Virus record (IMG/VR): IMGVR_UViG_3300040801_005862
Span: 1-30,106 of that record
DNA length: 30,106 nucleotides
Strand: one strand, 5' to 3'
From: a virus
The notes under the pieces were generated by a model. The model saw only the letters and a list, made by a program, of their open reading frames with translations. It did not search any database and was not told the origin of the DNA. Position numbers and translations under genes: made by a program. How positions within the stretch are numbered: the first letter of the stretch is position 1; each line of letters opens with the position of its first letter. Of the stretch, positions 892 to 28,340 are shown one piece after another.

Positions 892-1045
892 GGGCTAACG
901 AGCCCAGAGGCGGTGCAGGCGTTGAATGACGCGCTGGCTGACGTGAAGCAGGACTTCCGGATCGAGTGACTGCGGTGTCCTAACGGTCGAAGAGACATCC
1001 GCTTAGTGACACCAACGTCAGCCGGGTAGAATCAAGGCACGACTC

Positions 1046-2798: not shown

Positions 2799-2886
2799 AG
2801 GCTTTGTACATCCTGCGACTGTTGACGCCACCTGACGACGTCACTGTCGGACGGCAGTAGTGAGTCCACAACCCTCCTCGAAACGC

Positions 2887-2896
2887 CGGGTTATGA
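2887..2896. repeat. Third copy of CGGGTTATGA
   Basis: Exact copy of the 10-mer at 541-550 and inverted relative to 508-517, so the transposase remnant and the phospholipase D gene are bracketed by it. It falls in the 175-bp gap before the phage late operon, where I see no gene. Confidence 0.4.
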
Positions 2897-2973
2897 GCTG
2901 AAGGGCGAGCCCGTTCGAACGTCTAGTCCCTCCCTTCGCGTAACCCAACGACCGCCCGTCGTAGCGAACCCGA

Positions 2974-4329
2974 TCACAGCTTCTCCACCCCCCGCCCGGC
3001 CGCGCCGTCGTCGAGCATGGTCAGGGTGTTGCGGTCGAGCCTGCCGTTGGTGGTGCCGTAGCTGGTGATCTCCGGCGACGGCAGGCTGGTCTCGTGCGTC
3101 CAGCTGACGCTGCCGGCGAGGTGGTCGATGCGTGAGAGGTCGACTTCCTGCCTTGACGGGTTGTGCGTGAACGCGAGCAGGCTGTTGGCGTTGCCTTCGC
3201 GGCAGATGGCTTTCAAGGTGCGGTTGTCGCCGAAGAGGTCGAGCATGCGGACCGACCAGAGCGTGTCGCGCGGATTGGTGACGCCGTTTGACCAGCCGAA
3301 CGGCCGGTACTCGGCGATCACGGTGTCCTGCTCGTGGCCCTGGGCGTAGTAGCCGTTGGACGCCCAGCCTGCGACGATGAGGTTCAGCACGTCGGTCGGG
3401 TTGCGCAGCACGCAGCCGATCGAGTGAGGCACGATCCGCGAGACGGTGCGGTCTTCCTGGATCTGAAGCGGGTACCAGCCGGTGCCGGCCCGGGCGAACC
3501 AGCCGGCTTCAAACCCGCCGGGCAGAACAACGGGGGATGAGTTGTAGTCGGCCGCCGGGATGTAGCTGATGCGCCCGCTCGCCCAGATCGTGCGACGCTC
3601 AGAGCTGGGCACGTAGGCGTCGCGGTAGTCGCCGGGCAGGCCGACCAACTCGACGAGGTACTGGCCGTGGTGGCTGGGGTTGTAGGCCTGCATCGACATC
3701 AGCATCGCGCAGAACTTGGAGCCGTGGTGGTAGGCGTTCCGCGGGGTCATGATGTAGCTGGTCTGCTCGAGATCGGTGAACGAGCCGGTCTGCAGCTGGA
3801 CCGAATCGACCAGCGCGAAGTCGTGGGTGAGCTGGGTGTAGGCGAAGCGTCGGTCGCGCCGCCCCTCGCCGAGGAAGACGCCGTTGCTGTTGACGCTGAT
3901 GCACTGGTCGCCGCAGTAGATGTCGTACACGCCGTTCTGGCTGGAGGGGTTGCCGCTGTGCAGGTCGGCGAAGTAGCTGGGGATCGTGGTCATCGGGACC
4001 GACAGCTCCTCAGTCGCCGTGGACAGCCGATACCTCTTGAAGTAGCTTTCGCCCCCGCTATTTCCGGGGGCGGAACTTCCGGGGTCGTACCACCAGACGC
4101 GGTTGTCCCAGACGTCCACGGCCTCGACACCGGTGAGCGTGCCGATGGGCCACTGCGTGACGGTCGGGGGCGTGGTCGATTCATCGATACGGAAGTGGTA
4201 GAGGCTCCGCTGGTAGGAGAGCACGAGGTCGACGGGGGTGGGGTCGCACGGGCAGTCGTCGGCGACGCAGACGATGCCCTGATCATTGAGCACCAGTCCA
4301 CCCCCGGCGTTGCCGGTCCAGGCGGTCAC
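2974..4329 (-). CDS. Phage structural protein, distal tail / adhesion position (unknown family)
   Basis: The 451-residue product starts at a GTG whose last bases overlap the stop of the upstream gene (GTGA, 4326-4329), indicating translational coupling. It is the last gene of the minus-strand late operon. It is rich in aromatic residues, Gly and Ser, with repeating beta-type stretches (VEAVDVWDNRVWWYDPG, TLWSVRMLDLFGD), which would suit a beta-propeller or beta-sandwich tail-tip protein. No catalytic motif is seen. Two CCCCGGAA-family repeats lie inside it at 4062 and 4077. No lysis genes follow; the operon ends ~80 bp before the CGGGTTATGA repeat, so the original 3' end may be missing. Confidence 0.6.
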   Translation of the reverse strand: MTAWTGNAGGGLVLNDQGIVCVADDCPCDPTPVDLVLSYQRSLYHFRIDESTTPPTVTQWPIGTLTGVEAVDVWDNRVWWYDPGSSAPGNSGGESYFKRYRLSTATEELSVPMTTIPSYFADLHSGNPSSQNGVYDIYCGDQCISVNSNGVFLGEGRRDRRFAYTQLTHDFALVDSVQLQTGSFTDLEQTSYIMTPRNAYHHGSKFCAMLMSMQAYNPSHHGQYLVELVGLPGDYRDAYVPSSERRTIWASGRISYIPAADYNSSPVVLPGGFEAGWFARAGTGWYPLQIQEDRTVSRIVPHSIGCVLRNPTDVLNLIVAGWASNGYYAQGHEQDTVIAEYRPFGWSNGVTNPRDTLWSVRMLDLFGDNRTLKAICREGNANSLLAFTHNPSRQEVDLSRIDHLAGSVSWTHETSLPSPEITSYGTTNGRLDRNTLTMLDDGAAGRGVEKL

Positions 4330-5150
4330 GCGGCACCCCCGGTCGCTTGGCATGCGTTGGCGTTGGGGACCTCGTTGATCCAGTACAGCGCAACCGTGCC
4401 GTCGGCCCCCGGAGTGCCTCCCGGAACGGCCAGACCAGCCGTGGCGGCGAGGTACTGCCCGCGTGGCATGCGTCGCCAGGCGTGCGGGGCGGCGATGGGG
4501 TCCACGCCGGTCGCGAGCTCGTTGCCGGCGAGGTCACGGACGGTGTAGGTGAACGAACACTGGTTGTCCTTGTCGCCGGGCAAACCGCCGGTCTGCGTGA
4601 GCTGGACCGGGACAAGGGGGTCGGCTTCGCCGAAGCGGACGAGGGCGAAGACCACGCCGGTGCCGGTCTCTTTCCAGAGGATGGTGAGCGGCCCCGCGAA
4701 CGTGGAGGTGATCGTGGTCGTGCCGTCGGCCACGTCGGCGTGGGTGTGTGCCTCGTCGGTGACGTCGATCTTCGCGATGCACACGCCGCTGGCATAGGCC
4801 CGGCCGATACTGCCGGCGACGACCGGCTCGGCGGTGATGACGATGCGTCCCGTGCCGACGTCCTCGACGACCGGTGTGGCGACGGTGAATCCGGGGGTTG
4901 CGGCGAACGCTTCGGCGTTGTCGGCGGGATCGATCAGCACGCCCGAGATCGCCGCGGCCGAGAACCTTTCAAGGTCATCCCCGGAAGTGTTCTTCACGCG
5001 GATCGTTGCCTTGGACGTCACCATGGATGGCACGGGTCGCGGCGTGCCAAGCGCCTCGTAGTGTGCCCGCGTGGCGTCGATGACGCGGTTCCAGTCCGCG
5101 GCGGGGATGCGCATCGGCTGGCCGGACTGGACGTGACGCAACCCGGCCAT
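4326..5150 (-). CDS. Phage structural protein (unknown family)
   Basis: 274 residues from an ATG at 5150, two bases after the upstream gene's stop at 5153. A longer reading from 5420 is possible but its N-terminus is only the out-of-frame shadow of the upstream gene. The start region MRIPAADWNRVIDATRAHYEALG is helical and recurs in tail-region proteins of planctomycete prophages (recollection, not verified). The rest is beta-rich with Thr, Val and Gly repeats, as in virion proteins. It lies between two other uncharacterised proteins downstream of the tape measure, where distal tail and hub proteins are encoded. Confidence 0.6.
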   Translation of the reverse strand: MAGLRHVQSGQPMRIPAADWNRVIDATRAHYEALGTPRPVPSMVTSKATIRVKNTSGDDLERFSAAAISGVLIDPADNAEAFAATPGFTVATPVVEDVGTGRIVITAEPVVAGSIGRAYASGVCIAKIDVTDEAHTHADVADGTTTITSTFAGPLTILWKETGTGVVFALVRFGEADPLVPVQLTQTGGLPGDKDNQCSFTYTVRDLAGNELATGVDPIAAPHAWRRMPRGQYLAATAGLAVPGGTPGADGTVALYWINEVPNANACQATGGAA

Positions 5151-5152
5151 GA

Positions 5153-5947
5153 TCAGATCCCCAGCCCCGCGAAGCTGGCCTGCCGGTAGACCCGCTCGAC
5201 GTACGCGGCGATGGGCTTGCGCACCAGCATCTTGGCCGCCGTGTCCTCGGCCTCCTGGTAACGCACCCACAGGTAGTCCCACCCCGCCTTGAAGACCCCC
5301 GGAATTGATCCGATGGTGAGGCCGCTCACATTGGGCGAGCCGGCGAAGGCGTACGTCACCTCCCAGAGGTCGTCCGATGAGGTCCCGCGCCGCGAGCCGG
5401 CCGCCCCGAGGAACAGGCACTCCCCCGGATCCAGCCCGCGGAAGGCGTTGGTGTTCACGCAGCCGGTGAGGCTGAACAGCGTGCCCTTGTAGGCGGTGGT
5501 CACCGTGGACGGGCTCAGCCAGTGCGTCTCGGAGAACGAGTAGACGGGCACGGTGATGTCCACGCCGTCGACGCCCGATTCGGTAACACCAATCGCCCCC
5601 TCATAATTGGCCGCCGTCCCGCTCGCCGCGTACGACGCCACCGTCTGCAACGATTGCGTGATGTGCTGCGTGCCGCCGCGGGTCTCGAAGGTGAAGCTGG
5701 ATTCGCCCGGATCGGCCGTCGCCCCGCCCGTCGGCTTGGTGTACCGCACGGCTCCCAGCCAGATGTTCGGGGCGATCTCCTCGACTTCGGCGTCGTCGCG
5801 TTTCAGGCCTTCGTGCGTGGCGGGCGACGCCGACAGCACCTGCGATCGTGCCGTGGCGTCCGAGTCGGTGCCGCGAACTATATAGGTCAGCTCCGCCGAT
5901 TCGTCGGCGAGCACGCGACCGAATTTTTCCTCGACGACAACGGCCAC
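5153..5947 (-). CDS. Phage tail-region structural protein (unknown family)
   Basis: 264 residues. The GTG at 5947 is chosen because a GAGGAG ribosome site lies 9 bases upstream, overlapping the end of the tape-measure gene (stop at 5961-5963). The frame is open further upstream but there it overlaps the tape measure and reads as low-complexity shadow. The protein is beta-rich (AELTYIVRGTDSD, FTFETRGGTQHITQ) and has the GAIGVTESGVDGVDITVP segment often seen in planctomycete prophage proteins just after the tape measure, the usual place of distal tail or baseplate proteins. Function is inferred from position only. Confidence 0.6.
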   Translation of the reverse strand: MAVVVEEKFGRVLADESAELTYIVRGTDSDATARSQVLSASPATHEGLKRDDAEVEEIAPNIWLGAVRYTKPTGGATADPGESSFTFETRGGTQHITQSLQTVASYAASGTAANYEGAIGVTESGVDGVDITVPVYSFSETHWLSPSTVTTAYKGTLFSLTGCVNTNAFRGLDPGECLFLGAAGSRRGTSSDDLWEVTYAFAGSPNVSGLTIGSIPGVFKAGWDYLWVRYQEAEDTAAKMLVRKPIAAYVERVYRQASFAGLGI

Positions 5948-5960
5948 TGGGGTTCGCTCC

Positions 5961-7964
5961 TCATGTGAACGTGAGGCCGCCGGTGCGGACTTCACGTTCG
6001 ATGCGCTTGGTGTTGCGGGCCGTCGCCTCGGCCGCGTCGGCGGTGCGTTCGGCGGCGTCGCTCTGGAAGGCCATGCCGACGAGCGCCGCGGGGTTGAACG
6101 ACCCCACCGACGCGATGCGATCCATGGCCCGGTCCAACTCATCGCCCAGCCCAGACAAATCTGGCAACTCGATGCCGTCGAGGCCCAGCGGCGTCCCGCC
6201 TTCCGCTTCGACCGTCTCGCGCTTCTGCTTGGCCTCGGCGATCGCCTGCTCCCACTCGCGGCGGGCGTCGATCAACGCCCGCTCGGCGTCACGCTGGGCC
6301 TTGGCCTGTTCAACCGCTTGTCGGTCCTGTTCGTCCTCGTACCGTTGGCCGATGACGCCGAGCGTCTGCTCGTTGAGCTTGGCCGCCCGGCGGCGTCGGC
6401 TCTCGCGACGGCGGTCGGTCTCGATGACCCGCTCGCCCGTCGTCGAGTCGATCTCTGACAAACGCTCCTTCAACGCCCGATCGACCTCGGCGTTCGCTTT
6501 CCGGGGGTCGAGGGAGTCGTCGAACAGACCTTTGATCGTGTTCCACGTCTTGGCCGCCAGCGCCCGCATCCGCTCCCATGAGCGGTTGAAGATGTTCACG
6601 AACCCCAACCACGCGGTCTGCAGGAACGCGGTCGTCTCGATCCAGCCCGCTTCGAGGCCGTGCCAGACGAGTTGCAACGCCGACAGAGCGCCGGTGAACG
6701 CGCCAACCAGCACGTCCATGATGAAGTGCTTGAAGCCGAGCCAGAGCCCGCGGACGAAGTTCGTGCCACGGACCCACTCGGCCTTGAGCGCCAGCCAGAG
6801 GATGCGGGCAGCCAGCGAGACGTCCCCCGCGGCCAGCGCATCCGCAATCCCGCGGAAGGTTTGGGTCGCTCGATCGCGGAGCTGGATGAATCGATCCGCC
6901 AGCCAGTCGAGCGCTTTTCCCGCGATGCCGCTGGCGTGCAGCAGGTACGCCGACAGCGCCGTCACGGCGACGATCACCGCCCCGATCGGCGAGACAACAA
7001 ATGCCAGCGCCGCGGCCAGACCGCCCAGCAGCGACACCACCCCGGCAACGGCCGACGCCAACACCCCGATCACCACGGCGGAGCCGAGCAGCAGCCCGCC
7101 CAGCAGGATCAGCGCAACGCCCGCCCTGGTGATCACCGCGGCGATCTTCGCGCCCTGCACCACGAGCTGGCGATTGGCTTTGATCCACTCGGTCGCGGTG
7201 ACCGCCAGCCGCAGCAGCGTGTCGGCGAGCCTGGTGAGCAGCGGAGCCAGCGCCGCCCCGACGTTGAACACCCCCTGGCGGACCACTTTCCACAATCGGT
7301 CGAGGGCATCGGTAAAGACCTCGGCCGCCGCGGCGTCCTCGCCCGACATCGTCAGGCCCAGGCGTCGCGCCTCGTCCTGCAGCGCCGAGATGCCCTCGGC
7401 ACCCTGGGCGAACATCGGCAGCAGCTGCGTGCCCGCCCGGCCGAACAGGGCCTGGGCCAGCGCCGCCTTGCGGGTGGGGTCCTCGATGTCCGCGATGGCC
7501 TCGGCGATCCGCTTGAACTGTTCCTCGGGCCCCCCGGAGAGCCCGTCGAGGTCCTCGTACGCCAGCCCCAGGTCCGCGAGCGCGTCGGTCTGCGTCGACA
7601 GCCCACGCCCCGCGTCGTAGATCGATCGCTGCATCCGACGCATCCCGCCCTCCAATGCCTCCAGCGACGTGCCGGTCTGTGACGCGACGAACTTCAGCTC
7701 GGACAACGCCTCGACCGACAGGCCCGTCCGCTTGGCCATCTTGGCGACCTGGTCCCCGTAGGAGCTGAAGTACTTGGCCGACGCGATCAGCGGGGTCAGC
7801 AGCGCCGTGCCGATGCCCGCCACGCGCAGCCCCATCCCCCGGATCGAGCCACCGAACCCCCGGAGTTGGCGCTGGGCGTGGCGCAGCGCGCGGACGAGCT
7901 TGGTGTCGTCGGCGAACAGCTCGACGAACGCGCGACCGGCCCGGATGCCGCGTGAGCTGGCCAT
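5961..7964 (-). CDS. Phage tail tape measure protein
   Basis: 667 residues, fitting a tail-length ruler that also acts in DNA ejection. The N-terminal part (residues 1-250) is helical with AKYFSSYGDQVAKMAKRTGL and an SVEALSELKFVA segment typical of TP901-type tape measures. A hydrophobic membrane-like block spans residues ~270-340 (ALILLGGLLLGSAVVIGVLA and neighbours). The C-terminal ~150 residues form a charged coiled coil rich in Arg, Glu and Ala. It follows two tail assembly chaperone genes, as in most long-tailed siphoviruses. It is short compared with many tape measures, so the tail would be short if made. Confidence 0.85.
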   Translation of the reverse strand: MASSRGIRAGRAFVELFADDTKLVRALRHAQRQLRGFGGSIRGMGLRVAGIGTALLTPLIASAKYFSSYGDQVAKMAKRTGLSVEALSELKFVASQTGTSLEALEGGMRRMQRSIYDAGRGLSTQTDALADLGLAYEDLDGLSGGPEEQFKRIAEAIADIEDPTRKAALAQALFGRAGTQLLPMFAQGAEGISALQDEARRLGLTMSGEDAAAAEVFTDALDRLWKVVRQGVFNVGAALAPLLTRLADTLLRLAVTATEWIKANRQLVVQGAKIAAVITRAGVALILLGGLLLGSAVVIGVLASAVAGVVSLLGGLAAALAFVVSPIGAVIVAVTALSAYLLHASGIAGKALDWLADRFIQLRDRATQTFRGIADALAAGDVSLAARILWLALKAEWVRGTNFVRGLWLGFKHFIMDVLVGAFTGALSALQLVWHGLEAGWIETTAFLQTAWLGFVNIFNRSWERMRALAAKTWNTIKGLFDDSLDPRKANAEVDRALKERLSEIDSTTGERVIETDRRRESRRRRAAKLNEQTLGVIGQRYEDEQDRQAVEQAKAQRDAERALIDARREWEQAIAEAKQKRETVEAEGGTPLGLDGIELPDLSGLGDELDRAMDRIASVGSFNPAALVGMAFQSDAAERTADAAEATARNTKRIEREVRTGGLTFT

Positions 7965-7967
7965 CGA

Positions 7968-8201
7968 CTACTTCCTCCCCGCCTCGAGCGCGGCCCGCAC
8001 CATGGCCAGGCCCTGGCGGTCGGGTTCGTCGGGTTGGATCGTTGTGGGTCGCATGGTCTTGGGGAGGAAGTCGGTGATCTGGAACACGCGCTGCTTCTTG
8101 GATCTGTTTGCATTCGCGATGACGGCACACAGGGCGGCGGTCCGTTGCCAACGGTCGCAGGCGTGGCCGTCGGCCATCCACAACAGCTCACGCAAGGTCA
8201 A
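7968..8201 (-). CDS. Tail assembly chaperone, second frame (gpGT-like T part)
   Basis: Up to 77 residues; the first possible start is a TTG at 8201 overlapping the stop of the preceding gene (8198-8200), with a later ATG at 8177. The product has the WMADGHACDRWQRTAALCAVIANANR pattern (positions ~8-33) that I associate with the small protein between chaperone and tape measure in siphoviruses. In lambda the equivalent is expressed by a -1 frameshift from gene G. Here the two frames overlap by 4 bases and I see no clear slippery heptamer, so coupling by overlap is as likely. Confidence 0.6.
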   Translation of the reverse strand: MTLRELLWMADGHACDRWQRTAALCAVIANANRSKKQRVFQITDFLPKTMRPTTIQPDEPDRQGLAMVRAALEAGRK

Positions 8202-8728
8202 CCCTCCGAGACCACTACTTCCGGGGCCGGGGCTGAGTCCGAGGACGCCTGCGATCTGCCAGACGGTTGCCCATCCACCTCCTTCATCGCCTCGTCGGTC
8301 AGCGTGGCGGGGTCGATCCGATCGAGTCTCATCTCGATCGCTTTGACCGCTGCGTCGATCATGCCCATCTGCTTGGCGACGGCTTTCGCGCGGTCGGTCC
8401 GCCCCCGACCTCGGAAAAAAGTCACGAGCTCCTCGTAGAAGGCACGCTGGGCTGCCAGCAGCGTGGTGCCATCAAACACCCCACGGACCTCGTCAGCGGT
8501 GACGCCGTGGGCCGCGAACTGGCCCTCGAGCATGAGGCAGAGGACTTCGCCCAGCAGCATCTCGTCGGTGCCAAGCAGGGTCAGCGCGGGCGGCCCGTCG
8601 GGGTCGTCACGGCGGGGGGACTCGGGCTGGAGGAGGTCGATGCCGAGTCGGTCGCGGACCGCCATGGCGGTGCCGAGGTTGAGCGTCAGCGTCCACGTGC
8701 GGCCCGAGGCGTCTTGGAAGGTTTGCAT
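8198..8728 (-). CDS. Tail assembly chaperone (gpG-like)
   Basis: 176 residues from the ATG at 8728, preceded by GGAG nine bases upstream; the TTG six bases earlier lacks such a site. The product begins MQTFQDASGRTWTLTLNLG and is acidic with helical segments (ELVTFFRGRGRTDRAKAV) and a disordered Ser/Ala-rich tail, as in chaperones that coat the tape measure before tail-tube polymerisation. It sits between the tail tube and tape-measure genes, which is the diagnostic position. Family assignment rests on context and general character. Confidence 0.7.
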   Translation of the reverse strand: MQTFQDASGRTWTLTLNLGTAMAVRDRLGIDLLQPESPRRDDPDGPPALTLLGTDEMLLGEVLCLMLEGQFAAHGVTADEVRGVFDGTTLLAAQRAFYEELVTFFRGRGRTDRAKAVAKQMGMIDAAVKAIEMRLDRIDPATLTDEAMKEVDGQPSGRSQASSDSAPAPEVVVSEG

Positions 8729-8781
8729 AGTCAATCACTCCGTTGGCTTTCGCTTTGCCTGTTCACAACTTCCGGGGGGGG

Positions 8782-9219
8782 TTAGGCGACTTCGACCCAC
8801 TGGTCGAAGACGGCGAGCTTGGCGGTCACCGACACGGTGACGCCTTCTTCAAGCGGTTCGCTGCGGCTGAAGTTGGTGATGGAGAAGTCGCCGAGCGGTC
8901 CTTCGGTGCCCGAGGCGTCGCTGGCCCCGGTGAGCACGGCGAGTCGCAGGGTGCCGGCGGTGAGGAAGGCGGTCTTGACGGCGTCAAAGCCGGTGTCGCC
9001 GGGCTTCCAGAGCATCTCGAACTCGGCGGTGCATTCGCGGAGGGTGGGGGCGGTGGCTCGCCAGCCCTGGTTGGCGCGGGTGGTGACGTCGGCCTCGCCG
9101 GCCTCGAGGTTGAGGGTGACGTCCTTGACGTTGGACATCTCGATGAGGGAGGTGATCGCGGTGCCGGCGGGGCCTTGATAGATCTTGGCGTTCATGCCGA
9201 GGAGGAAGGCGTCGGGCAT
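8782..9219 (-). CDS. Major tail (tube) protein
   Basis: 145 residues from ATG 9219, with GGAG eight bases upstream. The sequence (NAKIYQGPAGTAITSLIEMSNVKDVTLN and EADVTTRANQGWRATAPTL) has the pattern of the phage tail tube proteins of the TP901-1 / gpV type, which form the hexameric tube around the tape measure. It lies just upstream of the two chaperone genes. A CCCCGGAA-family repeat falls in the gap after its stop (8770-8777). Length is normal for the compact versions of this family. Confidence 0.8.
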   Translation of the reverse strand: MPDAFLLGMNAKIYQGPAGTAITSLIEMSNVKDVTLNLEAGEADVTTRANQGWRATAPTLRECTAEFEMLWKPGDTGFDAVKTAFLTAGTLRLAVLTGASDASGTEGPLGDFSITNFSRSEPLEEGVTVSVTAKLAVFDQWVEVA

Positions 9220-9240
9220 GGTGGTACTCCGTGGGTTCCT

Positions 9241-9669
9241 TTAATGGACCGAGTCCCGCCACATGACGGACAGCTTGGGTTGTTCTTTCTCGAAGGCGGG
9301 GCCCATGTAGGGCCTCGACCGGATGCGGACGCGGTGGCGTTGGCCGCGTCGGCGGAGGGTGGTCGTGCCGCCGTGTTCGAGCAGGGAGGGCGCGTCGCCG
9401 CGGCCCGAGCCGTTGAGGCGGGCGGGGCCGATGACGACGGAACGTTTGGACGGGTTAAAGCCGAAGAAGAGGAAGCGCTTGAGCAGGCCGGTGCGCGACG
9501 TGGGCGGTTGGCCCGGGGCGGAGACCCTCTTCCGGGGGCGGATCGACGAGCGAGCTGAGCGACGAACGAACGCGCCGAAGCGGCTGAAGACGCGACGGGT
9601 CGCGCGATCGGTCGCCCGCACAACGGCGGGCTGGTCGAAGAACAGGTGGTTGATCTTCATGCCGATCAT
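9241..9669 (-). CDS. HK97 gp10-like head-tail / tail component
   Basis: 142 residues from ATG 9669 (an internal ATG at 9660 is the alternative), with a GAAGAGAAGCG stretch upstream as possible ribosome site. The protein is very basic, with RSSIRPRKRVSAPGQPPTSRTGLLKRF in the middle and RPYMGPAFEKEQPKLSVMWRDSV at the end (two adjoining conserved blocks). This is the pattern of HK97 gp10-type proteins, which join head and tail. The reading frame is continuous with the frameshifted gene upstream, giving an artificial open frame to 10341; the real gene starts here. Confidence 0.75.
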   Translation of the reverse strand: MIGMKINHLFFDQPAVVRATDRATRRVFSRFGAFVRRSARSSIRPRKRVSAPGQPPTSRTGLLKRFLFFGFNPSKRSVVIGPARLNGSGRGDAPSLLEHGGTTTLRRRGQRHRVRIRSRPYMGPAFEKEQPKLSVMWRDSVH

Positions 9670-9797
9670 GGCGTTGACTCGCTTCTCTTCGCGGGCAATT
9701 CCGGGGCTTCCGGGAGCGGAACTTCCGGGTGGGGCAGGAAATGGAGCTCGAAAAATGGCGCTTGATTCCTGTCCACGCGGTGTCCCGCGTCGAGAAG

Positions 9798-10197
9798 TCA
9801 GGTGATGTCCTCCAACGGTCCTTCGCTGGTGATGCGATAGGACGACGCCTTCGCCGGCGACAACGGAGCGGACGTGGATCTTGCTGGCGTCGTCGATGCG
9901 GATGACCACGCCGCGGTAGTTGGGCGGGGTTAGCGGCATGTTCTGCCCCCCGGAATCTCCTAAGAAGATGGGCTTGGTATTGATGTAAGTGGCGTCGTTG
10001 TCGATGGGCGAGGCGATCCACACGAAGCGGCAGGGCGTGGGTTCGGCGACCAGCGGCTCCGCGACGCCGGCCTGGGCGGGAGCCATGCTGCCGCCCGTGA
10101 AGGAGGTGGGGGCGGTGATGTCAACGAGCATTGCGCCGTCGTCAGGGTCGATGGCGATGGTCGCGCTGTTGAGCCATTGGCGTCGGGGTGGGGCCAT
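9798..10197 (-). pseudogene. Small phage structural protein with apparent frameshift
   Basis: From ATG 10197 the frame reads MAPPRRQWLNSATIAIDPDDG and continues beta-rich to about residue 115 (SKIHVRSVVAGEGVV). From there the natural continuation, SYRITSEGPLEDIT then stop, lies in a different frame (stop at 9798-9800). The indel falls between about 9836 and 9850. Without it the protein would be ~130 residues; as it stands the first frame runs on into the gp10-like gene. Its position among connector and tail genes suggests a minor virion protein; the family is unknown. A real mutation or a sequencing error are both possible. Confidence 0.5.
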
Positions 10198-10238
10198 GGG
10201 GGTCTCCGGGTGTGAGTTCCGCGGGAATTCCGGGGGGG

Positions 10239-10673
10239 CTATTTCATGCCGCGGTAGGTGACGGTGAGGACGCTGGTGAACACACGACGCTCGCTCAGGT
10301 GCTCGGGGGCGTAGACGGGGTCGTTGGTGGTGCTCACCCAACTCACCCCCGGAAGTTGGACCAACTCGCGGCGTCGCAGGTGGTCGGCGATGGCGTCGAC
10401 CAGCCCGCTGCGTTCGAGCACGAAGGCGTCGACATCCGATTCCGGGGGGACGCGCTGCTGGACGCCGATGTCGATGGTGAGGTCGTGCTGACTGGCGGCG
10501 CGGGTGGCCCCGGTGATCTCGACGGCCTTGGGCACGACGGTGACGCGCAGGCCGGTCAGCTCGGACAAGTCGTAGACCGGCAGCACGCGCCGCTCGGCGA
10601 TGAATGCGGGCGTGAAAGTGGCCACGTTCAGTTCCGCCTTGACGGCGTCGGCGACCTGGACGATCAGGCTCAT
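10239..10673 (-). CDS. Tail completion / terminator-like protein
   Basis: 144 residues from ATG 10673. An upstream extension to 10754 is open but overlaps the neighbouring coiled-coil gene. The N-terminus SLIVQVADAVKAELN is followed by alternating strands and helices ending TNDPVYAPEHLSERRVFTSVLTVTYRG. This layout, with a late conserved strand, fits the minor tail or tail-completion proteins that cap the tube (lambda gpU or gpZ position). It lies between the adaptor remnant and the tail-tube gene. Assignment is by position and general pattern. Confidence 0.6.
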   Translation of the reverse strand: MSLIVQVADAVKAELNVATFTPAFIAERRVLPVYDLSELTGLRVTVVPKAVEITGATRAASQHDLTIDIGVQQRVPPESDVDAFVLERSGLVDAIADHLRRRELVQLPGVSWVSTTNDPVYAPEHLSERRVFTSVLTVTYRGMK

Positions 10674-10675
10674 GG

Positions 10676-10924
10676 TCACACGCCCCCCGTTGAGGACGCG
10701 ACGGTCATCAGCCAGGTTGCGATCGCCGTGGCGGCCGTGCCGATGGCGAGCCACGCAAGCTTGTCGTGGCGGCGGGCGGCCTGTTCGAGACGATCCAATC
10801 GCGTCTGGATCCCGGGCTTCGTGCCGTTGCCGGGGGTGCCGCGGATGGCGTCGTCGAGGCGGTCGAGCTTGTCGTGGATGGCCCGCAGCTCGGATTGCAC
10901 GTTGGTTGAGTTCAGTTCGCTCAC
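10676..10924 (-). CDS. Small coiled-coil plus single membrane helix protein
   Basis: 82 residues from GTG 10924, which overlaps the stop of the adaptor remnant (GTGA). Residues ~8-55 form a charged coiled coil (SELRAIHDKLDRLDDAIRG, QTRLDRLEQAARR). A hydrophobic segment (LAWLAIGTAATAIATWLMTVA) sits near the end. This resembles XhlA-like or holin-accessory proteins, but the location among connector genes is unusual for lysis genes. Other possibilities are a membrane-anchored assembly factor. The ORF ends two bases before the next gene's start. Confidence 0.55.
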   Translation of the reverse strand: MSELNSTNVQSELRAIHDKLDRLDDAIRGTPGNGTKPGIQTRLDRLEQAARRHDKLAWLAIGTAATAIATWLMTVASSTGGV

Positions 10925-11039
10925 GACTCGGCTCCGGTCTCGCGGGTGTGGATGCGGTAGGTGGTGCGGTGGGCGTCGGACCACCGCCAGGGCCCGTCGC
11001 CGTGGACGTCCATGACCTCGTACACGCGGCCGTCGTGGA
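10921..11039 (-). pseudogene. 3' remnant of a head-tail adaptor gene
   Basis: The stretch between the truncated portal's stop and the next gene is open for 40 codons, reading VYEVMDVHGDGPWRWSDA and ending TRETGAES before a TGA at 10921-10923. It has no start of its own. The sequence looks like the end of a head-tail connector or head-closure protein. It is directly joined to the portal fragment, which is what a deletion of the intervening head genes would leave. Confidence 0.5.
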
Positions 11040-11612
11040 TCAGTTGGTGACCGACACGCGGTTCAGGTCACGTCGCGACAGCGGCGTGGTGACCCGGTCG
11101 GCCTCGATCAGCCGAACGTCCAGTTGCACCGGCCCGTCCACGCTGGGGTTGTGGGTCAGCACGGCAAACGCCTCGCCCGACTCGGCCCGGGCCATGCGCA
11201 TCGTGCGCAGCTTCTCGGCGAGCCTCACCGACTTCGCCCACCGCATGAAGGCCTGCTCGACCGCCGTGTTGGCCGCGGGGTCGTCGGTCAGCATCTGCAG
11301 ACGCGGGCCGGTGCCGACGGTGTCGTTGGCCAGGGTCAGCACTATGCCGCGGGCGTAGCTGTTGTTCGCCACCTCGTAGCGGGACCGGCTGCGCAGGATC
11401 GCCCGCACCTCGGGCGACGCGGCGGCGTCGGGGCTGAGCCGGTCGGCGTTGGCCCAGTGGCGGTAGTTGTCGGGCGTGGTCTGCGCGGCGTCGTACTTCC
11501 CACGAAGCGCGGGCACGACACGGAACAGGCCGCGACGGCGGTCGGCCGCCACGGCCCGGGGGGAGGGGGTGCGGTTGGCGGGGCGCAGGCGGGAGAGCAG
11601 CGGCAAGCGCAT
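11040..11612 (-). pseudogene. Phage portal protein, N-terminal third only
   Basis: 190 residues from ATG 11612 (GTG 11615 also possible). The sequence MRLPLLSRLRPANRTPSPRA, then DNYRHWANADRLSPDAAASPEVRAILRSRSRYEVANNSYARG (two adjoining conserved blocks), is the start of lambda-type portals, which form the dodecameric DNA channel. Such portals are usually ~500 residues. Here the frame ends DRVTTPLSRRDLNRVSVTN, and what follows is an unrelated adaptor 3' end. The rest of the portal, the head protease and the capsid genes are absent. Confidence 0.7.
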
Positions 11613-11818
11613 CACGCGGCCCCCGGCGGCACGAGCTTGGTGGTCTTGACGCCCAGGCCACGCTTCGACACCGCACGCTTGGACGCGAGGTAGCGGTCGG
11701 CGGCGATCTGCTCGGCGAGGCCGTGCTGCTCGACCGACTGACCGTCGACGCTCGCCTTGGAGGGCGAGACGGCGTTGTCACGGATCGCTTCGTCGAGGCT
11801 GTTTGCTTCGTCGCTCAA
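11612..11818 (-). CDS. gpW-like small head-tail joining protein
   Basis: 68 residues, apparently from TTG 11818. The centre SVEQHGLAEQIAADRYLASKRA and end KTTKLVPPGAA match, in my recollection, the small protein encoded between terminase and portal in lambda-like phages, where lambda has gpW. Its stop shares a base with the portal's ATG, so the two are translationally coupled. Nothing resembling a ribosome site precedes the TTG. The adjoining scar and AbiE pair separate it from the terminase, so it has probably lost its original upstream context. Confidence 0.5.
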   Translation of the reverse strand: MSDEANSLDEAIRDNAVSPSKASVDGQSVEQHGLAEQIAADRYLASKRAVSKRGLGVKTTKLVPPGAA

Positions 11819-11970
11819 GGCGTGGTCTCGATGGGAAGGATGTCCCTATCGATGACTTACGCGGTGGCGAAGCGAATGGCACGCTTAGCGATGAATCTCT
11901 GGATAAGTTTTTGATTGCGACGCATCGCGGCGGAACAACAGACCGCATCGCTTCATTCTTGCCAACGTGT
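11819..11970 (+). other. Unassigned scar between gpW-like gene and AbiE pair
   Basis: No phage gene is seen here. On the plus strand ~45 codons read as ordinary protein (GKDVPIDDLRGGEANGTLSD, then ESLDKFLIATHRGG) but have neither a credible start nor an end, and run into the antisense of AbiEii. It may be a fragment carried in with the AbiE cassette. Confidence 0.3.
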
Positions 11971-12867
11971 GTCAGGCTGCCACCGGCCGACGCGGGGCTG
12001 ACCGTTCGCCAGCGAATCCACCACTGGACTCAGAAAGGCTGCGAGCAAAGCCACCACCTCGACGAAGTCCTCCGGAGCCAGTTCGGCTCGGGTCGTCCTG
12101 AGAAACGCCCGCCACTGCTTCTGCTTCGCTTCGCTCGCCGCGAAATCCTCATGGAAACAGACCGGGTCCGGTTCGACGTTGGTGCCACGCCGAGCCAACG
12201 TCGTGGCGATGACCCTGGCAAGTCGCGGCCCGTCAAAATCAGACGACGACGCCAGCACGTAGATGTCAAAGAAGTCCTTCATCCGGGTGTTCAGCTCACC
12301 GAGCTTGACCATCGCTTCGAACTTCTCGGCGATCACCGTCTCGCGGTTGTAGGCCATCAACTCAGCGGGCGGGTGGTCAAGAATCGACGGATAGGTGATC
12401 GGCTCGGGCGACGGCGTGACGGCGTCGCTGAACCCGAAGTCGATCTGCATCGCCAGAGGCATCTTGCCGAACGCGGCCCGGAAGGTCGCACGAACGCCCT
12501 GGTAGTCGGCATCTTCGGCGATCCCCTCGGTCTTGACCGTGCCTGCCTCGTAGACGATGCCGTCGTCATCCACCGCAACGCCGCTGACATCGCCGACCAT
12601 GGAAGCGATGCCCGCTCGGTCATGCGCCACTCTGCCCAGCAGGTCGATGTCCCGCGTCACTCGGCTGGACGGCAAGTCCCAAACCCTCAGCAGCAGGCCT
12701 CCTTTGAGCACCACCCGATCGGCGTACGCCGACTTCGAGAGCCGGTAGAGGAATCGCTCGATCGCGTAGTACATCACGACGTCGTTGAAAAGACGCCCCG
12801 ACTCCGCGGCCACATTCAACAGTCGCTGATGGATCGACGCCTGGATGTTGCGGGTGGGCCGGGTCAC
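11953..12867 (-). CDS. abiEii: AbiEii nucleotidyltransferase toxin
   Basis: 304 residues. AbiEii toxins are nucleotidyltransferases of the Pol-beta superfamily (type IV toxin-antitoxin), causing reversible growth arrest or phage exclusion when the antitoxin fails. Visible motifs: KGGLLLRV at 55-62, RVTRDIDLLG at 69-78 (the two-Asp nucleotidyl-transfer motif), QIDFGFSD at 141-148, REtVIAEKFE-like RETVIAEKFEAMVKLG at 175-190 and RMKDFFDIY at 195-203. All hallmark residues are present, so it should be active. The ATG overlaps the antitoxin's stop (ATGA, 12864-12867). The pair is inserted between phage genes. Confidence 0.93.
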   Translation of the reverse strand: MTRPTRNIQASIHQRLLNVAAESGRLFNDVVMYYAIERFLYRLSKSAYADRVVLKGGLLLRVWDLPSSRVTRDIDLLGRVAHDRAGIASMVGDVSGVAVDDDGIVYEAGTVKTEGIAEDADYQGVRATFRAAFGKMPLAMQIDFGFSDAVTPSPEPITYPSILDHPPAELMAYNRETVIAEKFEAMVKLGELNTRMKDFFDIYVLASSSDFDGPRLARVIATTLARRGTNVEPDPVCFHEDFAASEAKQKQWRAFLRTTRAELAPEDFVEVVALLAAFLSPVVDSLANGQPRVGRWQPDTRWQE

Positions 12868-13490
12868 AGCACCGCTTCCAGGTAAGGCCGCATGACCCGC
12901 TCGACGCGGCAGGTCCTGGCGTGCTCAAGGACACGCTGGAAGCGGGCCCCACGCCGAGAGCGATACATGCGTAGCGCTTCAAGCGCCACATCGAGGCCGA
13001 TCTTGTTGCGGTACTTGAAGGCATCCGCCAGCGTCTTCTCGGGCTCGTAGACCCGCAGTTCCACGCCGTCCGTATCGCGCGTCTCAACCCCGGTTTCGTA
13101 CGCCGCCTCCGAGAATCGATAAACACGCAGCGGAGGATAATCCAGACGCGGCGCTCGCCCGTTGCGCGGAACGGCTACGTCCACCGCGTGAGGGATCTGC
13201 GTGGTCAGCTCGTGATACGCCAGCGCCGAGATCAGACAGATCACGCCGTGCGGCACGCGCTTGCAGACGGTCGCCAGATCGGGCTGGGCCATCGGCTCCA
13301 TCTCCGCCAGGCGGTACACACCCCGGGCGAGCTCGACGAGATCGCCCGCGTCTCGCAGGCCGTAGAGATCACGGGGATGAACCCCCGCCTCCAGCGCCTC
13401 GGTAGTGCGCATGACGCCGCCGTGGTCACGGAACACCGCCTTGGCACGGTCAGCAGGCGTGAGCGAGGATGGTGAGACGGGGGGCGGCAT
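12864..13490 (-). CDS. abiEi: AbiEi antitoxin / transcriptional repressor
   Basis: 208 residues from ATG 13490; a GTG at 13520 lies within the promoter region and is less likely. The protein has the N-terminal winged-helix (LTPADRAKAVFRDHGGVMRTTEAL, with GVHPRDLYGLRDAGDLVELARGVYRLAE, two adjoining blocks) and the C-terminal domain of AbiEi antitoxins. In studied cases these repress the operon by binding inverted repeats and block AbiEii. An inverted repeat lies just upstream (13503-13548). The pair forms an autonomous operon, opposite in origin to but co-oriented with the phage late genes. Confidence 0.92.
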   Translation of the reverse strand: MPPPVSPSSLTPADRAKAVFRDHGGVMRTTEALEAGVHPRDLYGLRDAGDLVELARGVYRLAEMEPMAQPDLATVCKRVPHGVICLISALAYHELTTQIPHAVDVAVPRNGRAPRLDYPPLRVYRFSEAAYETGVETRDTDGVELRVYEPEKTLADAFKYRNKIGLDVALEALRMYRSRRGARFQRVLEHARTCRVERVMRPYLEAVL

Positions 13491-13502
13491 CAGCAACCTA
13501 TC

Positions 13503-13548
13503 GGATAAAAAGCGGTACACATATTAGATTGTGGCGACGTTTTTATCC
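13503..13548 (-). promoter_or_regulatory. AbiE operator: 9-bp inverted repeat around a promoter
   Basis: GGATAAAAA at 13503-13511 and its exact reverse complement at 13540-13548 flank 28 bp that contain TAATAT on the minus strand (13521-13526), a credible -10 box. AbiEi proteins are known to bind inverted repeats at their own promoter, so autoregulation is likely. Confidence 0.6.
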
Positions 13549-13566
13549 AGTCTAGAGAACCGATCT

Positions 13567-15843
13567 TCACCGCTTCGCCGCCTGCAACGCCGACAGCTTC
13601 ACCCGCGGCTTCCTCGGCTCGGCCTGCGTCTCGACGCCCAGCCGCACCCCGCCCATCGACGCGGCGACGGCGCAGCCCACCAGACAGTCGAACCAGTGAT
13701 TGTCCGGCTTGGACGGCCGAACCGTCCACTCGTCCACCATGCGACCGTGCCCCTGCGTCCGCGTCCACGACTCCGAGCCGGCAACGTGGTCGGCGAACTG
13801 CCGGTGCATCGCCGCGGGGGCGTTGCCGTCGCCCTTGCCCCACAGGGTCAACGCCCCCCGGTCGCCCGGGGCGACCGCCAGGCGGGCGTGGGTGAACGTC
13901 TTCCAGTAGTTCACGTCGATCTGCACGTGCCGGAACTCGGCGGTCCGCGAGACATTGGGCACGTACCAGTGATGGCCGTGCCGCTCGCCGGGCTTGCGTC
14001 GGTACGTCGCCATCGGGCGGTTGCCCGCCCGGATGCCCACGCCCTTGGACGGCACCGCTGCTCCGCCCGGGAGTTTGTGGCAGACGTTGGAGACCACCCC
14101 CGGAAGGTAGCCCGAATCGATGAGCAAACGCTCGATTCTGATGTTGCCTTCGCCCTGGGGATAGTCGGTCGTCAGCAACTCCGTCGCCAATTGCTCCAGC
14201 CCAGCCTGCACCGCGCCTTCCACGCCGGCCCCGGGCATCAGATCACCGAGCGTCTTCTTCGCGTCGCGGAGCGAGAACAGCGACCGCTTCTGGTCGGGGT
14301 AGGTGCCGTAGTCGATGACGAAGCCCGTAAAGTCCTCCGCCCAGGCGCAGACGGCGTAGTACAAGAGCTTGTCATGCACATCGATGAATGCCGTCAACCG
14401 AGTGCATTCCACCGGCACTTGTTTCCGGGGGCGTCCGTTGACACGGGTGGCGACCTGGTCCGGGGTCAGCACGTCCTCATCGGTCTGCTCGGCGACGGGC
14501 TCGTTCTGGTACTCGGCGAAGAACGCCGGCTCATCCCGCAGCTTGAGGTTCATCGCGTGCTGCAGGGCGCTGACCTCGTCGTGATTGAACCGCTGCGGCC
14601 ATGCGACCGCCGACCCCACGTCCATCGCGTCGCGGTGCCGCTCGTAATACTCGGTCGCCTCCGAACCGTCACGCCCCTCACGCAGCGACTCAGCCCGGAG
14701 CTGGGCGTACTTATCCCAATGCTTCTCGGCCTCGGACGACTCGGGGAACTGATAGACCAGCTTCGTGCATTCACCTTGCCACTCGGGATTGCGCGAGCGA
14801 TCGAGGATCTGATCCGCCAGGTCGTCGTGATAGATCTTGGTGCAGGTCATGAACCCAGCCATTTTCACGCTGGGTCCGCCGAGGCCGAGCACATCACCGT
14901 TGAGGATCGACAAGCGGTGGCGGGTCTGTGCCGGCGAGTTGGCCGACTGGCGCGTCTGCGGGTCGTCGAGGATCACCAACGACGGACGCACGATGGTCCC
15001 GTCCATCCGCGTGTGCTGCTGCCCCCGGATGTTGGAGTCGAGGCCCGCGACGGTAATGATGCCTCCAGACGACGGGCTGCCGTCCATCGTGGGCATGACC
15101 AGCCGATCCGACGACCACGTGATGTACGTGGGCTTGCCCTGGCACAGCTGGCCGATCTGGCGACGGGCGTTGTTCTCCAGCTTGCGGATGGGGTAGATCG
15201 CTTCGGGGAAGTCGGCCAGCAGCAGGGGGTTCGCGAGCATCTCGCGCTTGATCGCGTCGAGCATCGACTTCGCCTGATCCTCGGCCGAGCCGATCAAACA
15301 CACATAGGGCCGGTAGCCGTAGAGGATCGCCCACAGTCCGGCGACGCGGGCGAGGGTAGTTTTTCCACTGCCCCTGGGCATGGCGAACGCGAACAGCCCG
15401 CCGTCGATCGTGGCCCGCTCGATCTTCTCGATCACCCGCAGGTGGTCGTCGCTCCACGCGAAGTGAAACGCCGCCGGGAAATACGTCTCGCAGAACCCCC
15501 GGAAGTTGTCGCCGCAGGCAGAGCGACGACCGGGGTCTTCGATGGCGGGCGGGGTACCGATGTCGCGGCCGGCGCGGGAGAGGGCGCGACTGCGCTCCGC
15601 TTCTCTGGCCTTGCGTTCTTCGTAGCTGATGGTCTCCGGCACAGGCTTGTCGCGCTGCCGCGTCAGCCACGCCACGTACTTCACGAGGTTCACCTTCCGG
15701 GGGTCGCCCGACGCGGTGATCCGCAGGCCCGCCTCGTTCATCTGGCGGTGCACCTTGGCGGCGCTGACGACGACACCCGCCAGCGTGCTGTTGAGCAGTC
15801 GGACCAGCTCGGTCGGAGACAGCGCACGCACGTCCATCGTCAC
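13567..15843 (-). CDS. Phage terminase large subunit (GpA type)
   Basis: 758 residues. The packaging motor carries Walker A PRGSGKTT at 156-163, Walker B SLVILDDPQ at 288-296 and a C-terminal nuclease region with TAFIDVHDKLLYYA around 484-497 (D488 as likely metal ligand) and NHWFDCLVG near 718. The N-terminal ~65 residues (SPTELVRLLNSTLAG to NLVKYVAWLTRQ) resemble the small protein encoded just upstream. The ATG overlaps that gene's stop (15840-15843). It is at the longer end for large terminases. Five CCCCGGAA-family repeats fall in or near it. Confidence 0.9.
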   Translation of the reverse strand: MTMDVRALSPTELVRLLNSTLAGVVVSAAKVHRQMNEAGLRITASGDPRKVNLVKYVAWLTRQRDKPVPETISYEERKAREAERSRALSRAGRDIGTPPAIEDPGRRSACGDNFRGFCETYFPAAFHFAWSDDHLRVIEKIERATIDGGLFAFAMPRGSGKTTLARVAGLWAILYGYRPYVCLIGSAEDQAKSMLDAIKREMLANPLLLADFPEAIYPIRKLENNARRQIGQLCQGKPTYITWSSDRLVMPTMDGSPSSGGIITVAGLDSNIRGQQHTRMDGTIVRPSLVILDDPQTRQSANSPAQTRHRLSILNGDVLGLGGPSVKMAGFMTCTKIYHDDLADQILDRSRNPEWQGECTKLVYQFPESSEAEKHWDKYAQLRAESLREGRDGSEATEYYERHRDAMDVGSAVAWPQRFNHDEVSALQHAMNLKLRDEPAFFAEYQNEPVAEQTDEDVLTPDQVATRVNGRPRKQVPVECTRLTAFIDVHDKLLYYAVCAWAEDFTGFVIDYGTYPDQKRSLFSLRDAKKTLGDLMPGAGVEGAVQAGLEQLATELLTTDYPQGEGNIRIERLLIDSGYLPGVVSNVCHKLPGGAAVPSKGVGIRAGNRPMATYRRKPGERHGHHWYVPNVSRTAEFRHVQIDVNYWKTFTHARLAVAPGDRGALTLWGKGDGNAPAAMHRQFADHVAGSESWTRTQGHGRMVDEWTVRPSKPDNHWFDCLVGCAVAASMGGVRLGVETQAEPRKPRVKLSALQAAKR

Positions 15844-16079
15844 TCACCCCCGTCCTGTCGCCCGTCGTTCCCCCGTCGCGGCGAGTTGAGCCAGGCCGCG
15901 TAGTGGACCAGGTGAACGGTGCCGTTGGCGTTGGTGGGCGCGCCGTCGGCCACGTGACGGCGTAGGTCATCGATAGGCAGACCCAGCAATCGTGCCAGTT
16001 GCTCGACCGGCACGGCCGAGGGGTTCAGCGGGCCGTCTGCGCCGCCGCCCGGCATGTCGGGGCCGACTTCCGGGGTCAT
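15840..16079 (-). CDS. Small terminase-like DNA-binding protein
   Basis: 79 residues, first gene of the late operon. The centre reads VPVEQLARLLGLPIDDLRRHV followed by HLVHYAAWLNSPRRG. The pattern is that of a short helix-turn-helix with a conserved Tyr-x-x-Trp-Leu end. The same pattern occurs at the start of the large terminase (NLVKYVAWL), so one may derive from a duplication of the other. Position immediately before the large subunit suits a small terminase or a DNA-recognition accessory. It is shorter than typical small terminases (~150 residues). Confidence 0.6.
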   Translation of the reverse strand: MTPEVGPDMPGGGADGPLNPSAVPVEQLARLLGLPIDDLRRHVADGAPTNANGTVHLVHYAAWLNSPRRGNDGRQDGGE

Positions 16080-16283
16080 CCCTGATCTCCGTAAATAACT
16101 GTCGATGCTGGCATTACTGCCTTGATGACGCCGCCGAATCGAGGCTCAATGTGTTCATACACCACGCCCCCGGAAGGAGAACGCAGATGACCACCAACCC
16201 CACCCACCAGGCTCAAGGCCGCCGCCGCGGCAGACCAGGAGAACGCTCGGCTCCGTGACGAGCGAGACGCGAGCAAAGACGGC

Positions 16284-16574
16284 ATGACCGCCAGCGAACG
16301 GGCCATGACGGAGACCGCGAAACAGCCCAACGCCGACAAGCCCATGAGCCTGCTCGACGCCGCCGCCAAGGTCCTCGCCGACGCCAGCGAGCCGATGAAC
16401 ACCCGCGAGATGGTCGACGCCGTGCAGACCAAGGGGCTGTGGAAGCCGGGCACCGGCAAGACGCCCCACGCGACCTTGTACTCGGCCATCCTCCGCGAGA
16501 TGAAGCACAAGGGCGACGACAGTCGCTTCACCAAGGTCGAACGCGGCCGGTTCACCTGCACGAAGGGAGCGTGA
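16284..16574 (+). CDS. HARE-HTH domain protein (start probably lost by frameshift)
   Basis: The 96-residue frame contains PMSLLDAAAKVLADASEPMNTREM and KGLWKPGTGKTPHATLYSAILREMKHKG (two blocks, residues ~18-75), then RFTKVERGRFTC. This is the HARE-HTH (winged helix) fold found in phage and restriction-related proteins. The best ribosome site (AAGGAG) serves an ATG at 16187 whose frame stops at 16258. Upstream of 16284 the correct frame continues open as KAAAAADQENARLRDERDASKDG, a coiled coil, so the true start was probably 16187 with an indel near 16200-16212. Role: probable DNA-binding regulator. Confidence 0.65.
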   Translation: MTASERAMTETAKQPNADKPMSLLDAAAKVLADASEPMNTREMVDAVQTKGLWKPGTGKTPHATLYSAILREMKHKGDDSRFTKVERGRFTCTKGA

Positions 16575-16577
16575 TCT

Positions 16578-16925
16578 GTGCCGACCCGAACCACCCGCCA
16601 CGAAACCTTCCGCGTCGACCGCGCCGGCATGCTGGTGCGATCGGTCACGCCGGCCAAGGGACGAGCCTACGAGCACCGCTGCTCGCTCGAGCACCTCGAA
16701 CGCATCGCCCACGCCTTCGACGAGACCGACGCCGGCCACACCGTTGAATCGCTCCGCGACGCCGAGGACATCCCGATGAGCCAGGCCGCCACCGCCATCG
16801 CCTTCCTGCTCGAGCGCGGCGTCGTCATCAGCGAGGGCAGGCGGAACCACGCCGTCGGCACCTGCGTCCACCTCGACGCGATGACCGAGTACCACGCGCT
16901 GCGGGAGGTCGACCCAGCGGCCTGA
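16578..16925 (+). CDS. Hypothetical winged-helix-like protein
   Basis: 115 residues from a GTG at 16578, three bases after the HARE-HTH gene, so the two are co-transcribed. The sequence AHAFDETDAGHTVESLRDAEDIPMSQAATAIAFLLERGVV has the layout of a small winged-helix domain (one block, residues ~48-87), preceded by a basic beta stretch. No family name can be assigned. Small HTH genes in this position, upstream of other early genes, often act in phage regulation. A terminator follows at 16951. No signal peptide or membrane segment is seen. Confidence 0.6.
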   Translation: MPTRTTRHETFRVDRAGMLVRSVTPAKGRAYEHRCSLEHLERIAHAFDETDAGHTVESLRDAEDIPMSQAATAIAFLLERGVVISEGRRNHAVGTCVHLDAMTEYHALREVDPAA

Positions 16926-16950
16926 CCCCCGGGCCACGCCTTCTCTCTCA

Positions 16951-16972
16951 CCCCGGCGCTGGCCGGGGTTTT
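16951..16972 (+). terminator. Rho-independent terminator
   Basis: CCCCGGC...GCCGGGG hairpin (16951-16968) followed by TTTT, 26 bp after the stop of the 115-residue gene. Confidence 0.75.
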
Positions 16973-17008
16973 CTCGTCGGGCACGGCTCGCTTCACTGGT
17001 AAAGAACG

Positions 17009-17078
17009 CTTGACTAGTGCGGAACGTTAGGTAAGATTCCTTGACTAACCAGCCGCCTAAGTCAAAGGAGCTTGACCA
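17009..17078 (+). promoter_or_regulatory. fic promoter with three phased CTTGAC(T/C)A repeats
   Basis: TTGACT (17010-17015) and TAAGAT (17032-17037) are spaced by 16 bp as -35 and -10 boxes. CTTGACTA at 17009-17016, CTTGACTA at 17040-17047 and CTTGACCA at 17071-17078 are each exactly 31 bp apart, about three helical turns. The first overlaps the -35 box, the second follows the -10 box, and the third lies between the ribosome site (AAGGAG at 17065) and the ATG. Confidence 0.6.
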
Positions 17079-17081
17079 GCG

Positions 17082-18492: not shown

Positions 18493-18514
18493 GTCGAAGG
18501 CAAGGATCGGTAGG

Positions 18515-22099: not shown

Positions 22100-22125
22100 C
22101 ATGATGGAAATTCAACCCCCGGAAG

Positions 22126-28295: not shown

Positions 28296-28340
28296 CCCGG
28301 GGGCTTCCGGGGGGGAGCGGGATCGCTCCCCCGCCGGGGA
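28296..28340. repeat. Strong GC-rich hairpin
   Basis: GGGGGAGCG (28311-28319) pairs perfectly with CGCTCCCCC (28324-28332) over a 4-base loop, within a wider CCCCGG...CCGGGG frame. There is no T-run, so it is not an obvious terminator. Confidence 0.6.

Follow-up and report, generated by a model that had tools for sequence, protein, structure and literature searches.

An over-represented DNA word in a putative planctomycete phage and its relatives, with signs of spread as short tracts

The word and its copies in the phage late region

The IMG/VR record IMGVR_UViG_3300040801_005862 is a 30,106-base fragment of a phage, analysed here over its full length (the window), in whose late region a first-pass annotation had reported at least 19 copies of a short motif, TTCCGGGG (hereafter the word). 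Across the window we counted 22 exact copies (14 on the plus strand and 8 on the minus strand), distributed as none in 1-4061, 19 in 4062-16176 (1.57/kb) and 3 in 16177-30106 (0.22/kb), against 1-2 expected over the whole window; both the number given for the late region and the rarity to its right were thus borne out. Relative to the called genes, whose positions come from a simple hexamer-based caller of our own writing and are approximate, 17 copies fall in coding sequence and 5 between genes, and both orientations occur, as the annotation had described; every reading frame is represented.

The first two copies (4062..4069 and 4077..4084, both +) are 15 nucleotides (nt) apart, the former within a gene at 2974-4329(-) and the latter making GCGGAACTTCCGGGG with position 4070. 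The paired arrangement, GCGGAACTTCCGGG, was located at exactly 4070 and 9716, where it had been reported, and the second of these follows a copy at 9699..9706(+) and TTCCGGG at 9708. Further copies lie at 4979..4986(-) within the gene 4326-5150(-), at 5297..5304(-) within 5153-5947(-), at 6499..6506(+) within the tape-measure gene (5961-7964, -) and at 8219..8226(+) within 8198-8728(-). The copy at 8770..8777(+) stands 4 nt past the stop of the tail tube gene (8782-9219, -), where the sense strand reads TAA-CCCC-CCCCGGAA. The gene 9241-10197(-) contains copies at 9530..9537(+) and 9948..9955(-), and the gene 10239-10673(-) contains copies at 10347..10354(-) and 10440..10447(+), with another at 10228..10235(+), 3 nt past its stop and again CCCCGGAA in the sense direction. 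Four copies are within the gene for the GpA-type large terminase (TerL; 13567-15837, -), at 14098..14105(-), 14423..14430(+), 15497..15504(-, peptide FRG) and 15695..15702(+). The late-region series ends with a copy 4 nt from the start of a small gene at 15840-16079(-) (16068..16075, +) and an intergenic copy that continues into GGAAGGAG ahead of an ATG (16168..16175, -). To the right, one copy is intergenic, 17 nt past the stop of the gene 21659-22099(+) and CCCCGGAA in its sense (22117..22124, -), one is within a UvrD-like helicase gene (23946..23953, +; gene 22194-24338, -) and one is intergenic (28305..28312, +).

Chance, composition, codon usage or common peptides such as FRG, PE and SGG might be held to account for these counts, given that the window is GC-rich, that CGGGGG is moderately common and that tandem copies of the word encode low-complexity linkers. 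Dinucleotide shuffles of the window gave a mean of 1.96 copies and a maximum of 5, and the second-order Markov expectation was 1.05, making the word the top-scoring 8-mer of the window (z = 20.5); the 9-mer TTCCGGGGG was more extreme still, with 16 copies against 0.25 expected. Synonymous codon shuffling (1000 trials) yielded a mean of 2.74 coding copies and a maximum of 9, compared with the 17 seen, and codon bias therefore does not explain the excess. Copies in all frames and on both strands, and a low count of the reversed word in word-rich genomes, also speak against this explanation, which we consider refuted and to which we assign a negligible probability. The excess is real, beyond chance or codon use.

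An AbiEii/AbiEi type IV toxin-antitoxin pair (11953-13490, -) sits between the portal and terminase genes of the late operon, the portal being a lambda-type fragment (11040-11612, -). It holds no copy of the word, as the annotation had stated, and this absence is weak evidence taken alone, as the pair spans only 1.5 kb. Adjoining the terminase region is a gene for a Fic/DOC family protein with a possible helix-turn-helix domain (17082-18239, +), and the remaining called genes include a primase (18515-19996, -), a serine recombinase (20574-21662, +), a second serine-recombinase-family gene (26667-27257, -) and a transcriptional-regulator-like helix-turn-helix gene (27504-27839, -). One of the two recombinase-family genes carries a zinc ribbon and the other a resolvase N-terminal domain. 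A 39-nt direct repeat, 85% identical (25070-25108 and 29986-30024), lies near the right end of the window, where GC content drops to 0.47, and could mark the end of an element. Rfam and tRNA scans of the window found nothing.

Distribution among related phages and host genomes

The host of this phage is very probably a planctomycete, judging from its terminase sequence, since the closest terminases are those of other IMG/VR contigs (94% identity) and of genomes of Phycisphaerae and other Planctomycetota. No near-identical annotated phage was found in the phage collection searched. Single planctomycete genomes can carry at least four related prophages with this terminase (L085/L090/L094/L110; L086-L095; L118/L132/L133/L154; complete genome G005, 3.06-3.37 Mb). 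In a subset of the 160 related loci the word was the top or near-top 8-mer, the richest cases being L102 (28 copies in 13.2 kb), L007 (21 in 16.1 kb), L082 (22 in 22 kb) and L001 (16 in 22 kb), and most of the other relatives had 0 or 1 copy. Density in the rich phages is 1-2 per kb. The restriction to late genes noted in the first-pass annotation holds for this contig and fails for the family, as copies in L007 and similar relatives extend into other regions and host chromosomes also carry them.

Of 198 Phycisphaerae genomes, about a dozen were strongly enriched for the word, with most others at the level of the reversed-word control; in rich genomes, TTCCGGGGG outnumbered that control by 893 to 61, 583 to 19 and 535 to 27. 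A sample of the phylum contained few strong word-rich cases outside the Phycisphaerae set. In G005, the sampled chromosome had about 0.15 copies/kb and regions with prophages of this family had 0.15-1/kb. We read TTCCGGGG(G) as a genomic word that proliferates in some Phycisphaerae and in their phages and accessory genes. This distribution bears on whether the word serves this phage for packaging or encapsidation, as its density in the late region of the contig might indicate. Copies are spread all along related phages and occur in host chromosomes and in a type III restriction-modification operon as well. Related prophages from one host also show several-fold differences in density (22 copies in L082 and 3 in L096, both from isolate RI_212). 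The packaging-linked site suggested in the first-pass annotation is therefore largely refuted, and we regard it as highly improbable.

Other short words, GGACAAAAG, AGTCCAAT and CAATAGGT, cluster in related planctomycete phages in both orientations and in tandem (L068:2458-2779 and 4768; L039:463-607; L053:5199-5419), and are either iterons or other words of the TTCCGGGG kind; related phages may use other words. The sequence TTGAGCAC occurs 17 times at a spacing of about 72 bases in a CRISPR-array-like arrangement (L156:4414-5577) near a terminase relative in Gemmatales KatS3mg105, and TCGCCGGC occurs in 47 dispersed copies in L155, a prophage locus of Rubripirellula obstinata, resembling words of the HIP1 type.

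Gain of copies by short insertions

Small insertions were surveyed by all-vs-all alignment of the loci; an insert was accepted if it measured 3-60 nt and if each flank matched at 14 or more of 20 bases. Of 159 such insertions in word-rich phages, 49 created the word where the relative lacked it, compared with 9 of 1012 in other phages, and the word covers only about 0.6% of rich-phage DNA. The survey was replicated on loci newly retrieved with another terminase, where the figures were 30 of 113 in rich phages and 2 of 103 in others. Merging repeated contexts left 57 distinct insertion contexts, among which homologous ones are possibly not fully independent. Insert lengths ranged from 6 to 30 nt and were mostly multiples of 3 (18 inserts of 6 nt, 19 of 9 and 10 of 12, with a few of 15, 21, 24 and 30), with 10 and 11 nt also found in some contexts. 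Examples, with the insert in brackets, are GACTA[TTCCGGGGG]CGGGGCC and TTCGA[TTCCGGGGG]CATCC; for GGTCCCTCCC[GCAGTTCCGGGG]GGCGAG and for the insert [CCCCGGAACTGC], the flanks are identical at 40 of 40 bases. Neither target duplication nor constant insert ends were seen. The bases at the insert edges vary around a constant core of 8-9 nt rather than delimiting a fixed unit with defined ends, and tandem arrays have spacings of 9 and 12, including tandem TTCCGGGGG at 9 nt. The events are taken to be insertions, not deletions, because the longer allele is rare, and not on the strength of a tree for each case.

One host gene pair presents a similar picture. In a type III mod/res pair from the word-rich genome G084 (L231), four of seven copies lie within segments missing from an 80%-identical relative (L240); of the three in ungapped stretches, two are absent from L240 and one is common to both. 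Among ungapped word sites, 15.7% differed from the closest relative at 3 or more of 8 positions, compared with 5.8% of neighbouring control windows, and differences at 6 or more of 8 were seen in 5 of 115 word sites and 0 of 690 control windows. Some copies thus arise as block replacements and others by ordinary substitution. Taken together, these alignments provide good statistical support for the view that many copies enter DNA ready-made as short tracts and not by point mutation alone. Insertions of 6-30 nt are an unusual route for the spread of a repeated word.

Within the window itself, an insertion origin is only weakly indicated, and the insertion claim rests on the relatives and not on this contig because most window copies have no close relative to compare. 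Only the copy at 8219 falls where some relatives have gaps, which total 12 nt in L104, L004 and L015, with a substitution in L001. In L001 the copy at 10347 is identical, those at 15497, 15695, 16068 and 16168 are kept, and those at 14098 and 14423 have 2 mismatches and 1 mismatch, respectively. The copy at 14423 is also present in L009, L014 and L015, that at 15497 is kept in L012 and substituted in other relatives, and that at 15695 is substituted in L002 and L003. A role as recombination linkers at gene borders was considered and rejected: a gene-size indel between the window and L001 (9673-10244) is flanked by nearby copies, and other breakpoints are not.

Of the three readings offered in the first-pass annotation, a small mobile motif fits best, as homologous loci show short insertions and replacements. 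In one form of this reading, the word would be a micro-mobile element that plays no part in cellular recognition, written as TTCCGGGGG at breaks or stalled forks by an enzyme or from a template (RNA, single-stranded DNA, or dispersed copies via template switching), with purifying selection sparing harmless copies. The inserts are short and exact, leave their flanks undisturbed and duplicate no target; these traits, the variable insert edges, the tandem spacings of 9 and 12 and the build-up in phages, restriction genes and linkers are all in its favour. Very small mobile repeats are known, among them the small dispersed repeats of cyanobacteria, the GC clusters of yeast mitochondria and the palindromic elements of rickettsiae, with units of about 20-150 bp. 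Yeast mitochondrial GC clusters are also the subject of a further source (PMC4478555). Like these repeats, the word is tiny, dispersed and inserted between genes (in frame inside genes, as are the rickettsial elements), and homologous stretches of DNA differ in whether such an insertion is present; the word departs from these repeats in its constant part of 8-9 bp and in inserts that start at 6 nt.

Neither reverse transcriptases nor Y1/RAYT transposases tracked the word, although the metagenome-assembled genomes (MAGs) used for this comparison are incomplete. DRT10 and telomerase-like bacterial reverse transcriptases make tandem repeats of a 9-nt unit (PMC12632851), much as tandem TTCCGGGGG arrays have 9-nt spacing; unlike the word, their products are not known to enter genomes, and several of the richest genomes had no detected reverse transcriptase. 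Specifically, RVT_1 was counted in 6 of the 10 rich genomes and in 4, or at most 5, of the 10 poor ones, and it was not found in the rich genomes G060, G003, G119 and G067, a test limited by MAG incompleteness, and this candidate was rejected. A system of RAYT and repetitive extragenic palindromic (REP) units was rejected likewise, as Y1_Tnp occurred in 9 of 10 rich and 7 of 10 poor genomes, again incomplete MAGs, with stronger matches in the poor ones, and as the word is not a palindromic hairpin, whereas a palindromic unit of at least 20 nt is required. Integron attC sites were considered because GCCTAAC/GTTAGGC adjoins some copies, and were dismissed on inspection, since neither the spacing nor the phage context fitted.

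Possible recognition of the word and comparison with known systems

A micro-mobile element that nothing recognises would be expected to leave inert insertions, and the copies do not behave as such. Copies were better conserved than the sequence beside them: 62% of ungapped word copies were unchanged in the closest relative, compared with 51% of flanking windows, and 23% of word sites had 1-2 mismatches, compared with 43% of flanking windows. Neutral decay of inert insertions predicts a ratio of one-mismatch to exact excess of about 1, whereas rich phages gave a ratio of about 0.2-0.3 and the G005 prophages one close to 0. Because copies outlast their flanks and one-mismatch variants are scarce, these comparisons suggest that the word is recognised by something. 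A micro-mobile sequence without recognition remains the runner-up, a possibility that we rate as rather unlikely.

The copies also show polarity near gene ends. Within 20 nt past stop codons, 39 copies read CCCCGGAA in the sense direction and 0 the opposite; a terminator role and selection against G-runs near translation starts are alternative sources of this bias, and the data fit both. Coding copies in the relatives have no preferred orientation (68 opposite, 66 same). Close inverted pairs comprise 11 head-head and 1 tail-tail. A head-head hairpin occupies the same intergenic place in two G005 prophages, L163:14032-14072 (copies at 14032 and 14065) and L165:8730-8769 (8730 and 8762), which differ by a compensatory change of T-A to C-G on both sides, as expected if some word pairs act as terminators.

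These features could instead belong to a protein-binding site under ordinary selection, such as a stoperator-like silencer, a Chi-like recombination site or a terminator half-site, and a sharp, asymmetric, conserved G-rich 8-mer with such polarity and paired arrangement is what this explanation would call for. Mycobacteriophage stoperators are asymmetric sites, numbering 20-30 in each phage, and some of them stand at gene ends with a single polarity; in these respects they resemble the word. Most copies of the word, however, are intragenic and show no orientation bias, and the host chromosome carries the word too. Chi sites and the FtsK-orienting polar sequences (KOPS) are likewise asymmetric G-rich octamers enriched in a genome. 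Unlike them, the word is gained by insertion and has no strand bias in the complete G005 chromosome, where the extended word occurs 71 times forward and 74 times in reverse with the strands intermixed, and replichore polarity of the KOPS/Chi type was rejected on this basis. Selection alone, moreover, does not supply exact inserts of 6-12 nt. An ordinary binding site is thus an unlikely explanation; the protein-binding site proposed in the first-pass annotation gains indirect support from the sharpness of the word and its conservation above the flanks, and no binding protein was identified.

Three facts must be explained jointly, namely the ready-made short tracts, the maintenance of the exact word and its concentration in phages and accessory genes. 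The explanation we favour, tentatively and at somewhat less than even confidence, is a recognised word resembling the DNA uptake sequences (DUS), spread as short templated tracts with drive and reaching its highest density in phages and accessory genes. DNA bearing the word would be favoured by a sequence-specific protein of DNA transfer or recombination. Other copies would act as templates for short-patch recombination of the microhomology type, and molecular drive would thereby spread the word. Copies persist at sites that tolerate them, namely inside permissive protein loops, where they are in frame, and in one orientation just past stop codons. The logic would be that of DUS, here acting chiefly on phages and mobile genes.

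Recent copies of the neisserial DUS are too diverged for point mutation, are highly conserved and form inverted pairs used as terminators (PMC2397512). Like the DUS and uptake signal sequences of Neisseria and Pasteurellaceae, the word is short, asymmetric, over-represented on both strands and located in and between genes, with new copies beyond the reach of point mutation, conservation above that of its neighbours and inverted pairs near gene ends (PMC2397512). DUS, in contrast, are enriched in the core genome and not found in newly acquired DNA, whereas the densities given above for rich phages and prophage regions reach beyond that of the sampled chromosome, and the word is not classed as a DUS because its genomic distribution is the opposite.

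This distribution is one of several points that count against a DUS-like, recognised word. No receptor, enzyme or template for the word was found in this analysis, and a donor search for the long inserts yielded no clear or specific donor elsewhere. Ordinary conversion tracts are far longer than the inserts, and several window copies, notably those in TerL, arose by substitution, as comparison with relatives indicates. The low one-mismatch excess could also reflect rapid removal of recent insertions. More doubtful than the DUS-like reading is a stronger proposal, that dedicated machinery copies one fixed sequence, 6-12 nt at a time, into phage and host DNA, in frame in working genes, as a mobile or marking unit far below the size of any recognised element.

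We know of no DNA-transfer signal in the planctomycete phylum, and a literature search turned up none; nor was there a publication on the word among the best 30 of 153 matches, or a relevant one on a planctomycete octamer. If the spread proposed here is correct, one short word would be moving as ready-made tracts through the coding DNA of planctomycetes and their phages, either as a DNA-transfer signal centred on mobile DNA instead of the core genome or as a micro-scale mobile sequence. Under either reading, the origin of uptake-type words would become directly testable, because donor-free and donor-bearing alleles coexist in many phages.
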